Below, piece after piece: positions 12,640-16,367 of a DNA stretch of 64,000 bases; position 1 is the first letter of the stretch, and each line of letters starts with the position of its first letter. Made by a program: the position numbers and the translations under genes. This DNA is from Streptacidiphilus anmyonensis (GTDB lineage Bacteria; Actinomycetota; Actinomycetes; Streptomycetales; Streptomycetaceae): assembly GCF_000787855.1 (NCBI RefSeq), contig NZ_BBPQ01000025.1, positions 1 to 64,000 of the forward strand. The letters run 5' to 3'. The notes under the pieces are model-generated. The model saw only the letters and a list, made by a program, of their open reading frames with translations, was not told the DNA's origin and did not search any database.

Positions 12640-12683
12640 CCGTCCGTCGCCACTCCTGCCCGCGCCCTGGAGGTGACCGATGA
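12636..12683 (+). CDS. 15-residue micro-ORF bridging two operon genes
   Basis: ATG at 12636 overlaps the ATPase stop codon (ATGA) and the TGA at 12681-12683 overlaps the ATG of the next membrane-protein gene (ATGA). The product would be [23 protein letters not shown] lies 5 bases upstream of its ATG, and a second GGAGG inside it serves the next gene. It could simply relay ribosomes between the ATPase and membrane-protein genes, or be a true micropeptide or regulatory leader. It has no resemblance to a known leader family that I can confirm. Confidence 0.4.
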   Translation: MTVRRHSCPRPGGDR

Positions 12684-13453
12684 CGACCTTCGTGCTCTTC
12701 CTCACCGTCCTGCTCGCCTGCGCGGTGGAGGCCGTCGAGGCGCTCACGATCGTGCTGGCGGCCGGAACCAGCCGCCACTGGGGCTCCGCCTGGCAGGGGA
12801 CCGTCGCCGCGCTGCTGTCGCTGGCGGTGACCGTCGCCGTGCTCGGCCCCGCGGTCGGTCAGATCCCCCTCGGGGCGCTGCGCCTGCTCGTCGGCGCGCT
12901 GCTGCTGGTCTTCGGCCTCCAGTGGCTGCGCAAGGCCGTCATGCGCGGCTCGGGCTACAAGGCCCTGCACGACGAGACGCAGGCCTACGCCGACGAGGTC
13001 GCCGCCGCGTCCGGCGCCGCGCAGGGCGGCCGGGGCCGCGTCAAGGACTGGTACGCCTTCACGCTGTCCTTCAAGGGCGTCTTCCTCGAGGGCCTGGAGG
13101 TCGCGTTCATCGTCGTCACCTTCGGCGACAACCAGCACGACATCCCCGTCGCGGTGCTGGGCGCCGTCGTCGCCGTCGCGATCGTGACCGTCGCCGGGTT
13201 CGCGGTCCGGGCCCCGCTCGCGCGGGTGCCGGAGAACACCATGAAGTTCGTCGTCGGCACCATGCTCACCGCCTTCGGCGTCTTCTGGGCCACCGAGGGC
13301 GCGGGCGCGAACTGGCCCGGCTCCGACGCCGCGCTGCTGGTCATCGTCCCGGCCGTGGCCCTGCTGGCCCTCGGCTACACCTCCGTGCTGCGCCGCGCCC
13401 GCACCGCGGGCACGCTCGGCACGGCCCACTCCACCGAGGGGAGCCTCACATGA
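12680..13453 (+). CDS. COG4280-like membrane protein with two ExxE motifs, possible metal permease
   Basis: A 257-residue protein with about seven membrane segments. Two glutamate pairs sit in hydrophobic segments: E17-A-V-E20 near the start and E137-G-L-E140 (FLEGLEVAFIV) in the middle. The second closely resembles the REGLE motif of FTR1-type iron permeases, where the ExxE glutamates bind ferric iron. A charged cytoplasmic loop spans about residues 85-128. The ATG has a GGAGG 5 bases upstream and overlaps the micro-ORF stop. Being in one operon with an iron-type ABC importer suggests a second metal-transfer step, but this is inference; the family is not characterised to my knowledge. Confidence 0.82.
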   Translation: MTTFVLFLTVLLACAVEAVEALTIVLAAGTSRHWGSAWQGTVAALLSLAVTVAVLGPAVGQIPLGALRLLVGALLLVFGLQWLRKAVMRGSGYKALHDETQAYADEVAAASGAAQGGRGRVKDWYAFTLSFKGVFLEGLEVAFIVVTFGDNQHDIPVAVLGAVVAVAIVTVAGFAVRAPLARVPENTMKFVVGTMLTAFGVFWATEGAGANWPGSDAALLVIVPAVALLALGYTSVLRRARTAGTLGTAHSTEGSLT

Positions 13454-13683
13454 GCGTCGTCGCGCGCGCCGTCTCGGCGCTGCGGTCCTTCGGCCGCTTC
13501 TGGTACGACTTCGTCGTCGGCGACGACTGGCGGGTCGCCGTCGGCGTGGCCGTCGCACTCGCCGCCACCTGGGGGCTGACGCGTTCCGGCGTCAACGCCT
13601 GGTGGCTGGTGCCGATCGCGGTCGCGCTGCTGCTCGGTCTGTCGCTGCTCCGCGTGGCCAGGGCCGCCCGGCCCAAGACCTGA
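13450..13683 (+). CDS. Small two-helix membrane protein (77 aa)
   Basis: The ATG overlaps the preceding stop as ATGA, making this the last gene of the operon. Two membrane segments lie near residues 30-46 (AVGVAVALAATWGL) and 50-70 (AWWLVPIAVALLLGLSLL). The N-terminus is amphipathic (ALRSFGRFWYDFVVGDDW). I do not know its function. Tight coupling to the ExxE membrane protein suggests it is an accessory subunit of the same transport system. Confidence 0.78.
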   Translation: MSVVARAVSALRSFGRFWYDFVVGDDWRVAVGVAVALAATWGLTRSGVNAWWLVPIAVALLLGLSLLRVARAARPKT

Positions 13684-13689
13684 GCCCAC

Positions 13690-14345
13690 CCGCCTGAACC
13701 TCGCGGCCCACGGCGTCCGGCGCGGCCGGGCTGCACCTCCCCGGCCTTCGGCCGGGAGGAGAAGGCAGTGCCCGCAGAACCCCCGGCCGAAGGGCCGGGG
13801 GAAGCGTCGCAGACCGGAGGGCCCTAGCGGCCCTCCCCTTCCCGGCGTAGACGTGACCCGCGCCTGCGTCCGGCGGGAGCCGGACGGCACCTCAGGCAGC
13901 CCTCGGCCAGAGGCCGGGCCATGCCCCGGGGAACCCCCCGGCCGCAGCCTGGGGGAAGAGTCGCGGGCCGGCGGAAGCATGCGGCCGTAGAGGCCCGCCC
14001 GAGGGCTATAGCGGGTCTCCCCCTCCTCGGCGTAGACGTCCGGCGTAGACGTCCGGCGCAGCCGGGCAGCACGTCACTCAACCCTCGGCCGGAGGCAAGG
14101 CCGTGCCTCGGGAACCCCGGCCGAAGGGCCGGGGGAAGGGTCGGGGGCCGGAGGGCCCTAGCAGCCCTCTCCCTCCTCGGCGTAGACGCGACCCGCGTAT
14201 GCGTCCGGCGCGGCCGGGCTGCAACTCCCCCAGCCCTCGGCGGCAGGGAAGGCCGTGCCCCGGGCACCCCGGCCGAAGGCCGGAGGAAGGGTCGGGGGCC
14301 GGAGGGCCCTAGCGGCCCTCGCCCTCCTCGGCGTAGACGCGGCCG
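13690..14345 (-). repeat. Degenerate ~150-bp tandem array derived from the 3' end and terminator of the ChrB-like gene
   Basis: This stretch of about 620 bp beyond the ChrB-like stop has no gene of its own. Read on the minus strand it repeats the last codons of the ChrB-like gene (GTCTACGCCGAGGAGGG), a TAG or TATAG stop-like triplet, a GGCCCTCCGG block and a hairpin. The anchor cgtagacg occurs in plus orientation at 14332 (the real gene end), 14181, 14031 (doubled at 14044) and 13846, spaced about 150, 150 and 185 bp. Hairpins of the type CCCCGGCC(GAAG)GGCCGGGG lie near 13781-13801, 13937-13960, 14113-14135 and 14266-14283, with another at 13739-13756. Each unit may act as a terminator toward either side. 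Confidence 0.82.
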
Positions 14346-14863
14346 GCGTACTCGTCCAGGACCTTCGCGCAGCGTTCCAGCGCCGCCGCCGCGGCGGCCT
14401 TGCCCGAGGCGCCCAGCACGTCGCGTGCCTCGACCTTGGCGAACCAGTTCCGCAGCTTCACCAGGTCCTCGTCGTTCTCCTCGAGCTCCGCGTAGGTGAA
14501 GTGCTCGGCGCGGTACTCCTTCTCGATCTGCCCGAGGAAGTCCTCGCAGCGGTCGACGATCTCCTCGTACTCGTCGTTGCGCGCCGCGTTGAACTGCTGC
14601 TCCATCTCGGCTCCGCCGCCGAGGACGCCCGCGTCGAGGAGCGACGCGGTGCCGCCCATCTCGACGATCTCCTTGCGCAGCAGCCGCAGCGCCCGCTCCG
14701 CGGACGTGCTCGCCGGCAGGGCGGCCACCGAGTTCTGCAGGTAGATGGCGCCCATCCCCTTGATCTTCCGCCACACGCCGGCACGCAGCCGCGTCGGCTC
14801 GGCCGGGATCTTGTAGACCAGCACCAGCCAACGCAGGCCCTGGGCCTGCCCCTCCGAGGCCAT
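14309..14863 (-). CDS. ChrB N-terminal domain-like protein
   Basis: A 184-residue protein. Residues 8-90 match the ChrB N-terminal domain pattern: WLVLVYKIPAEPTRLRAGVW followed by RKIKGMGAIYLQNSVAALPA. ChrB proteins are linked to chromate sensing or resistance, but free-standing relatives are widespread in actinobacteria and their role is unknown. The C-terminal half is acidic and helical (NDEYEEIVDRCEDFLGQIEK). ATG at 14863 is chosen because the conserved part starts just after it; upstream GTG or TTG starts would add up to 15 residues. Its 3' end is duplicated in the downstream array, with no chrA transporter nearby. Confidence 0.8.
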   Translation of the reverse strand: MASEGQAQGLRWLVLVYKIPAEPTRLRAGVWRKIKGMGAIYLQNSVAALPASTSAERALRLLRKEIVEMGGTASLLDAGVLGGGAEMEQQFNAARNDEYEEIVDRCEDFLGQIEKEYRAEHFTYAELEENDEDLVKLRNWFAKVEARDVLGASGKAAAAAALERCAKVLDEYAGRVYAEEGEGR

Positions 14864-14942
14864 CTGCCCCACGTCCGTCCTCCCGCACACGCTTACTGCC
14901 ACCAGCAACGTTACTGGGTGGAAGAGTCCTGTTGCGGACGCC

Positions 14943-16367
14943 TCACCCCGCGCTCGGCACCGCCTGGGCCGGCGGCCGCAGCAGGTCCCAGCGGCGGTCC
15001 GCCTCCAACTGCGCTGCCAGGGAGACGAGTCGCGCCTCGCTCGCCGCCGGGCCGAGCAGTTGGCAGCCGATCGGCAGGCCCGTGGAAGTGAATCCGGCGG
15101 GCACGTTCACTCCGGGCCAGCCGAGGACGTTCCAGGGCCAGGCGTAGGGGCAGGTCGTGATCATCGTCCGGTCCATGGCGGCCGGTCCCAGCCCGTCGGT
15201 CGCGCCGACGCGCGGCGGCGGGGCGGCGGTGGTCGGCGTCAGCAGCACGTCGACCTGCTCGAAGACCGCGCCGATGCGCCGCTGCAGGGGGCGCTCGGCC
15301 GCGCGGGCGGCGCGCAGGACGGGGCCGTCGAGCAGTGCGCCCCGGCGGATGTTGCTGCGGGTGCGCGGGTCGAGCAGCGCGGCGTCGGGCACGCGCCGGG
15401 CCCACGCCCGGATGCCCGCGAGGGCGCGCGGCAGCTGCGCCGGCCCGACCAGCCCGTAGCGGGGGTCCGCCTCGACCACGTCGTGGCCCAACCGGGCAAG
15501 GGTCTCGGCGAGTTCGAGGGTGGCGGCGCGGATCTGGGGGTCCAGCCGCAGCGGGTGGACCGCCCAGGCGGTGTGGAAGGACAACCCGATGCGCAGGCGG
15601 CCCGGGTCGCGTCCGGCTGCGGGCAGCATCTCCTGCGGCGCGGGCCGGTGCGGGTCGCCCGGGGCGTTGCCGGAGGCGACGTCCAGCAGTAGGGCGGCGT
15701 CGGCGACGGTCCGCGCCAGCGGCCCGAGGACGGTCAGGCCGTGGAACGGCTCCGGCTCCGGCCAGGCGGAGATGCGGCCGCGCTGCGGCTTGATGCCGAC
15801 CAGATGCGTCCAGGCGGCCGGGATCCGGATCGATCCCGCTCCGTCGGACCCGATCGCGGCGGGCACGACCCCGGCCGCGACTGCGGCGGCGGCCCCGCCG
15901 GAGGAGCCCCCGGGGCTGCGGTCCAGGTCCCACGGGTTGCGGGTGGCTCCGAAGCCCCGGCCCTCGGTGAAGGCCCACTGGCCGATCTCGGGGGTGTTGG
16001 TCTTCCCCACGACGACGGCGCCGGCCGCCCGCAGCCGCCGCACCACCTCGGCGTCCGCCGCGGCGGACGGGAACGCCCCGGCGCACCCGAAGGCCGTGGG
16101 CTCGCCCGCCAGGTCGGTGTCGTCCTTGATCGCCACCGGCACGCCGAGCAGCGGCAGCCGCTCCCCGGCGGCGAGCCGCCGGTCCGCCTCCTCCGCCTCC
16201 GCGAGCGCGGCCTCGGCCCGCACCCGCCGGAACGCGTTCAGCGTCGGCTGCGTCGCCTTAACCCGCGCGAGCGCCTCCTCGACGGCCGCGCGGGAGCTGA
16301 GCTGACCCTCTCTCAGAAGTGCGGCGAGCTCGGCGAGTCCGGGGTGCGGGCGGTGCGCGGGGGTCAT
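14943..16367 (-). CDS. Amidase-signature family amidase
   Basis: A 474-residue amidase-signature enzyme with the Ser-cisSer-Lys triad: Lys in GVPVAIKDDTD (K81), the glycine-serine loop SPGGSSGG (151-158) and the nucleophile in GAGSIRIPA (S179). Family members hydrolyse amide bonds of small amides, amino acid amides or cyclic peptides, in the cytoplasm. Length is normal. It is not a GatA: no gatB or gatC is nearby and the substrate-side C-terminus is shorter. It is upstream of the ChrB-like gene with a gap of about 80 bp and could be cotranscribed. Confidence 0.93.
   Translation of the reverse strand: MTPAHRPHPGLAELAALLREGQLSSRAAVEEALARVKATQPTLNAFRRVRAEAALAEAEEADRRLAAGERLPLLGVPVAIKDDTDLAGEPTAFGCAGAFPSAAADAEVVRRLRAAGAVVVGKTNTPEIGQWAFTEGRGFGATRNPWDLDRSPGGSSGGAAAAVAAGVVPAAIGSDGAGSIRIPAAWTHLVGIKPQRGRISAWPEPEPFHGLTVLGPLARTVADAALLLDVASGNAPGDPHRPAPQEMLPAAGRDPGRLRIGLSFHTAWAVHPLRLDPQIRAATLELAETLARLGHDVVEADPRYGLVGPAQLPRALAGIRAWARRVPDAALLDPRTRSNIRRGALLDGPVLRAARAAERPLQRRIGAVFEQVDVLLTPTTAAPPPRVGATDGLGPAAMDRTMITTCPYAWPWNVLGWPGVNVPAGFTSTGLPIGCQLLGPAASEARLVSLAAQLEADRRWDLLRPPAQAVPSAG

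Follow-up and report, generated by a model that had tools for sequence, protein, structure and literature searches.

In a Streptacidiphilus genome of 9.39 Mb (G000), the 625 bp that lie between the reading frame of a chrB-like gene and that of the small gene converging on it are nearly all taken up by an array of four head-to-tail direct copies of a segment that begins with the end of the chrB-like gene itself. The array lies on the minus strand, the sense of the chrB-like gene, at 13719-14357 of the window, as we call the whole stretch of 64,000 nucleotides that was analysed. The head of its first unit (U0) is the final 49 nt of the gene, stop codon included, the heads of U1, U2 and U3 are degenerate copies of it, and the gene has stayed intact despite the amplification of its tail. 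We think it probable that the array is a local, lineage-specific tandem amplification, tolerated in the convergent gap, in which hairpins were multiplied incidentally. The features of the locus are as follows.

12680..13453, plus strand: OFeT_1-type iron/lead permease gene of the opposing operon (PF16955, Pfam)
13450..13683, plus strand: small gene of 77 aa at the end of the opposing operon (gene call)
13714-13718, minus strand: GGACG 5-mer directly after U3, a candidate short direct repeat (the sequence itself)
13871-13719, minus strand: U3, 153 bp, frameshifted, with three stems of 8-9 pairs
14054-13872, minus strand: U2, 183 bp, the most diverged unit, frameshifted, with a 30-column insertion after the stop site
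14206-14055, minus strand: U1, 152 bp, the best copy, 87% identical to U0, with tail frame and TAG kept
14357-14207, minus strand: U0, 151 bp, the true gene tail with its stop TAG (self-alignment, stem scan)
14309..14863, minus strand: chrB-like gene of 184 aa with a ChrB_N domain (PF20229, Pfam; gene call)

The gene that the sequence-only reading had called ChrB-like does match PF20229 (ChrB_N), with an E value of 3.8e-47 and 160.6 bits against a curated cut-off of 23, and it is assigned to that family by its N-terminal domain alone, its function as ChrB being putative. The protein is 98% identical to its counterpart in S. neutrinimicus, 95% in S. melanogenes and 94% in S. pinicola, and the gene ends in TAG (14311-14309) here and in TGA in the relatives. 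Behind it on the minus strand, facing the operon, are genes for an amidase (PF01425), a beta-lactamase-like protein (PF13354) and a universal stress protein (PF00582). The convergent membrane-protein operon was likewise confirmed by Pfam as a plus-strand permease operon, which encodes an ABC permease (PF00528), an ABC ATPase (PF00005), the OFeT_1-type permease and the 77-aa protein, the last without a match in Pfam or NCBIfam; a search of three neighbouring proteins against NCBIfam gave no match. A sigma-70 promoter scan of the array locus found none, and a search of 13400-14600 against Rfam at a loose threshold returned a single match, to mir-207, with an E value of 0.45 and far under the gathering score. 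In another member of the genus (G007:C4:1521941-1522470, from an assembly that is 76% complete), the chrB-like gene matches as two overlapping pieces, as would come from a frameshift or a sequencing error.

The array had been described as four degenerate copies, about 150 bp each, at 13690-14345, and this description stands with slightly shifted limits: its units measure 151, 152, 183 and 153 bp and are 69-87% identical to one another. Tandem Repeats Finder (TRF) gives 13690-14345 a score of 494, and of 300 dinucleotide-preserving shuffles of this stretch none yielded any array with a period of at least 60, so that the periodic self-similarity exceeds what GC content gives and the array is a tandem repeat, putatively of VNTR type. 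The pairwise identities are 87.4% for U0/U1, 80.7% for U0/U3, 80.1% for U1/U3, 77.9% for U0/U2, 77.3% for U1/U2 and 69.3% for U2/U3. Given that U3 is closer to U0 and U1 than to its neighbour U2, the order of the copies is no simple stepwise series, and because the copies diverge by 13-31%, an assembly artefact is unlikely. The 5-mer GGACG opens all four units (invariant columns 1-5), and conservation between the copies is 85% in the columns of the coding tail, 85% in those of the stem at the stop codon and 76% in the remainder.

A further statement was that the tail of the gene can still be recognised in the open frames of the copies. This is the case for U1, the head of which translates to DAYAGRVYAEEGEGC followed by the stop, but not for U2, in which a 2-nt deletion shifts the frame and TATAG stands in place of the TAG of the other units, nor for U3, which is frameshifted by a 1-nt deletion. 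The tail copies in U1-U3 are non-coding, since not every unit length is divisible by three, and frames and stops have been lost.

The claim that arrays of gene tails are unusual held in part. When the last 60 nt of each of 1702 genes in 2.06 Mb of the genome were compared with the 800 nt downstream on the same strand, the chrB-like gene had the top score, 68, followed by 48, 44 and 42; however, in a permuted control a single, unexplained score reached 120 while the rest were 38 or lower, and two gene starts, when matched to the DNA upstream of them, reached 70 and 64. Duplicated gene ends are therefore rare, yet not unique to the chrB-like gene. At C149:161165-161315 (the same as L199:1165-1315), two 72-bp units in a divergent gap overlap a gene by its initial 50 bp, and this array may be the counterpart, at the head end of a gene, of the tail array.

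Comparison with related genomes places the array in the lineage of the source genome. When 11.0-17.5 kb were compared by BLAST with four relatives, collinear flanks reached to about 14311 on one side and started from about 13670 on the other, and the distance between these flank matches, 634-640 bp here, is 101 bp in S. neutrinimicus, 84 bp in S. melanogenes, 48 bp in S. pinicola and 71 bp in S. fuscans, at flank identities of 88-92% for the first two, 84-86% for S. pinicola and 80-88% for S. fuscans. Used as a query against 14 genomes of the genus, the array has a match in seven, the source genome included; those at the chrB locus span 41-59 bp, covering the coding tail and no more than about 10 bases beyond it, and two further matches measure 30 and 34 bp. 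Of 394 genomes sampled evenly from the family, 29 match at 1e-4, again counting the source genome, and the matches in the other 28 are 27-85 bp long, with two first-look candidates scored per genome. No array with a period of at least 60 was found at 78 loci around relatives of the gene in public genomes (up to 3 kb on each side, some shorter). The non-coding part of the unit, about 105 bp, has no significant homology to the gaps of three relatives: in nine comparisons, the lowest fraction of shuffles scoring as high was 0.026, which is not significant for nine tests. Among the genomes searched, the array is thus particular to the source lineage.

The divergence between the units bears on the age of the array. 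At four-fold sites of the chrB-like, permease and amidase genes, 117 of 606 positions (0.193) differ from S. neutrinimicus, and against this figure U0/U1 lies below (0.126), U0/U3 is equal (0.193) and U2/U3 lies above (0.307). The excess of U2/U3 (31%), with U0/U3 at 19% beside the four-fold 19%, counts against a lineage-specific origin. It is likely, however, that non-coding DNA changes faster than four-fold sites under GC3 bias, an explanation that we favour because the gaps of the relatives are without significant similarity to the unit; that part of the array predates the split from S. neutrinimicus and was lost in the relatives is the less favoured alternative.

Two origins had been put forward for the array, a remnant of repeated slippage and a strengthening of termination, and the former, understood as local tandem duplication, fits best with an array that is lineage-specific, non-coding and confined to one locus, and that has a short direct repeat at its boundary. 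The duplicated segment of about 150 bp would have taken in the final 49 nt of the chrB-like gene and extended almost to where the small converging gene ends. We infer that short direct repeats such as GGACG mediated the first duplication, through slippage of a strand or through unequal exchange, although this boundary repeat is weak evidence because the phase of the units was chosen by the analyst. Slippage or unequal exchange between the 150-bp repeats themselves could then have produced the later copies, giving four units, which would have decayed through substitutions and indels into the differing copies observed. The array may have survived because a convergent gap contains no promoter, start signal or ribosome-binding site to damage. 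As a side effect, several strong stem-loops would now stand where there was about one, and read-through might be lower in either direction.

This last point leads to the hairpins, which had been read as an amplified terminator. A stem spanning the stop codon is present in U0 (14302-14320), in U1, with one G-U pair, and in U3, and each of these three units has another stem, of 8-9 pairs, about 30 nt further on (14267-14285 in U0); U2 has lost the stop stem. Stems of at least six pairs number two in U0 and three in each of U1, U2 and U3. The recurrence of the stems is thus real, but no stem followed by a T-run occurs on either strand within 13400-15000, and the array contains no canonical Rho-independent terminator. 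The missing T-run says little here, because Streptomyces intrinsic terminators are U-poor with long, stable hairpins, as described in the portion of PMC12207403 consulted. Stable stems soon after the stop, which characterize clustered-hairpin and U-poor terminators, are present, partly as expected from base composition. In the part of PMC8355165 drawn on here, clustered hairpins are proposed to outperform single ones in termination, and tandem hairpins after the gyrA gene of M. smegmatis are cited.

A gain in termination from the multiplied stems is plausible, and the array might have been retained by selection as an insulator, its clustered hairpins stopping both converging transcripts more reliably, with the two kinds of terminators just mentioned as precedents (PMC12207403, PMC8355165, both known in part). 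As an account of the array, we hold this to be unlikely, if the most serious of the rivals. The whole array has seven stems of at least eight pairs against 2.8 in shuffles (none of 100 as high) and nine of at least seven pairs against 5.6 (3 of 100 as high), and its coding-tail and stop-stem columns are the better conserved ones. However, the copies share descent, so the array-wide count is not independent; there is no excess of stems of at least six pairs (12 against 10.0, with 25 of 100 shuffles as high), and unit by unit, U0, U1 and U2 fall within shuffles and only U3 is unusual. Folding tells much the same. On the gene strand, the z scores of U0-U3 are ordinary (+0.23, -1.82, -0.29 and -1.75), and on the plus strand (-0.72, -1.77, -0.66 and -3.94) U3 folds better than shuffles; the mean is -1.24 in 40 array-free convergent gaps and -0.23 in 45 coding stretches, and among the first units of 11 convergent arrays, the chrB array included, 10 lie above -2. 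The stems as drawn pair in 93% of cells against at most 72% for slid versions, and pair counting over the four rows found one compensated cell, the same as in shuffles, so that covariation beyond shuffles is absent; the stop stem, moreover, is lost in U2. In S. neutrinimicus, one 8-pair stem lies about 28 nt after the chrB stop, in S. melanogenes an 8-pair stem at about the same distance is joined by a 7-pair stem further on, and in S. pinicola no stem was found downstream of the stop in the stretch scanned; on the one hand, the array has more stems than these species, and on the other, the relatives manage without it. The idea of strengthened termination accordingly stays a proposal, and the amplified terminator is supported in part, by the recurring stems, their single-unit folding being ordinary.

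For local tandem amplification, the rest of the genome is informative. In a sample of 2.062 Mb that includes the window, with 1778 genes from a purpose-built, unvalidated codon log-odds caller, TRF found 21 arrays (period at least 60, score at least 120), six of them coding, one at a block edge. The 15 non-coding arrays comprise 11 in convergent gaps, three in co-directional gaps and one in a divergent gap. Convergent gaps make up 51,252 of 310,148 intergenic bp (16.5%) and 323 of 1769 gaps, and the enrichment has a binomial p of 1.8e-6 by bases and 4.9e-6 by gap number. It persists at other thresholds, and if the chrB array, which prompted the count, is left out, 10 of 14 non-coding arrays are convergent. 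The convergent share is 0.30 for units of 10-30 bp, 0.34 for 30-60 bp and 0.73 for 60 bp and more. The ten further convergent arrays, all from TRF and with periods of 64-270 bp, are the following.

C138:15432-15614 (= L225:15432-15614)
C138:30494-30963
C149:69985-70208 (= L194:9985-10208)
C149:162275-162596
C151:116209-116395
C152:321929-322394
C152:375479-375823 (= L189:15479-15823)
C153:439810-440370
C153:467771-467950
C153:550091-550213

The TRF match levels of the non-coding arrays range from 63 to 97%, which is what continuing birth and decay would give. When all 21 arrays were compared, coding ones included, most units were mutually dissimilar; the chrB array and C153:439810 have an exact match of 17 bp in common.

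Gaps that hold four other convergent arrays were compared with four relatives (G008, G006, G002 and G004) by match positions, each length here being taken between the same flank-match ends.

C152:321929: 119 bp in G008 (836 here), 112 bp in G002 (975 here), 1,098 bp in G006 (832 here), split over contigs in G004
C153:467771: 156 bp in G008 (342 here), 166 bp in G006 (280 here), 30 bp in G002 (343 here), 126 bp in G004 (340 here)
C149:69985: 183 bp in G008 (343 here), 13 bp in G006 (288 here), uninformative in G002 and G004
C138:15432: 8 bp in G002 (323 here), 64 bp in G004 (319 here), and, less certain owing to a dispersed unit, 55 bp in G008 (180 here) and touching flank matches in G006 (140 here)

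The gap is shorter in the relative in 12 of 13 scorable comparisons and longer in one (three of 16 were unscorable), in a set of loci chosen for having arrays here and so biased towards long gaps in the source genome. The expansion of convergent gaps by arrays is thus frequent in this genome and differs between species, and it may be limited to part of the genus. In G006, the gap orthologous to C152:321929 lies at G006:C107:112198-113295, so that it is long in two species. In one 400-kb block of another species of the genus (G003), with genes called using the codon table of the source genome, there were no non-coding arrays among 59 convergent gaps, where about two would be expected at the source-genome rate. 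This result, the longer gap in G006 and the dispersed units in three of the 11 convergent arrays were counted against the tandem-amplification reading.

A broader possibility is that the convergent gene ends of this Streptacidiphilus are mutational hot spots, where head-on transcription or replication stress at hairpin terminators has given rise to tandem duplications again and again, and that the resulting hairpin clusters, sometimes carrying a coding end, are kept as two-way insulators. We regard this combination as rather improbable.

Integrative elements that target the 3′ ends of genes leave a duplicated tail and stop as their trace, and the array could in principle record repeated integration of such an element, with the tail restored each time. 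The duplication of tail and stop would suit this, as would the TAG stop in place of the TGA of the relatives; nevertheless, the units are joined directly without cargo, the whole 150-bp unit repeats and not just a tail core, Pfam found no integrase family among nine neighbouring proteins, and no match was found in the phage and plasmid collections, so that we give this origin a very slim chance. Equally improbable is a dispersed repeat of a REP- or MIRU-like family that sits at this gene end by chance. Dispersed units are indeed involved in the arrays at C138:15432 and C152:375479, and partly in that at C149:69985, but the chrB unit has a single location in 2.06 Mb, none of the 59 additional matches of the array in the whole genome exceeds 54 bp (scoring covered 40 of 213 first-look candidates), and the unit begins with the conserved coding tail of the gene itself. 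A coding repeat, or a chance likeness of GC-rich DNA, is scarcely credible: long open reading frames do overlap the array on both strands, as is usual at such GC content, but the periods are not all in frame, frameshifts separate the copies, the gene caller finds no gene inside and, as noted, shuffled sequence gives no array.

As for the dispersed units themselves, C138:15432 and C152:375479 have one in common that has many matches in four related genomes and occurs at eight places in the 2.06 Mb, six in convergent and two in co-directional gaps. The array at C149:69985 matches this unit over 49 bp, and its own unit region, matched by many stretches of about 50-120 bp at other places in four related genomes, is thus partly a dispersed repeat; all three places of that unit in the 2.06-Mb sample are convergent gaps.

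The closest precedent that we found for the chrB array is the mycobacterial MIRU-VNTR between rnc and fpg1, as far as PMC2734929 could be consulted in part. There, the gap of the M. tuberculosis complex is 279-358 bp long and that of other mycobacteria 1-54 bp, so that a lineage-specific tandem array swells a short gap between conserved flanking genes as it does here. The mycobacterial array differs in lying upstream of fpg1, in beginning 40 bp beyond the rnc stop and in consisting of direct repeats of 16-37 bp, whereas the chrB array lies between convergent genes, has a unit of about 150 bp and includes a coding tail with its stop. Several GC-rich stems after a stop without a U-run are also what the consulted parts of PMC8355165 and PMC12207403 describe for clustered-hairpin and U-poor Streptomyces terminators, but the chrB cluster, a putative terminator, was apparently made by tandem duplication that carried coding DNA along.

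REP and BIME elements are palindrome-rich extragenic repeats near gene ends. The chrB array resembles them in these respects, and its unit differs from them and from the MIRU family in occupying a single locus of the 2.06 Mb and not being dispersed. In the open-licence literature, as far as it could be consulted in part, on convergent-gap arrays, Streptomyces REP, Streptacidiphilus repeats, the string GCGCAGTTCC, MIRU and stop codons, and U-poor terminators, we found no description of this type of array, and the portion of PMC4681348 consulted contains nothing on arrays.

The chrB array is a real and well-bounded form of a known type of locus, unusual in its particulars, and also a pointer to convergent gaps. 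It most probably arose as a side product when DNA was duplicated at a place where insertions do little harm, tandem duplication being tolerated in convergent gaps because these carry no promoters. It provides a clean natural case in which the coding end and stop of a gene have been amplified within an intergenic array and the gene itself is left undamaged, and it makes two ideas separable: tolerance, where there is no promoter to disrupt, as against active formation or selection through transcription conflict or terminator reinforcement. More generally, the count over 2.06 Mb suggests that, in this GC-rich chromosome, tandem duplications with long units survive mostly between converging genes.
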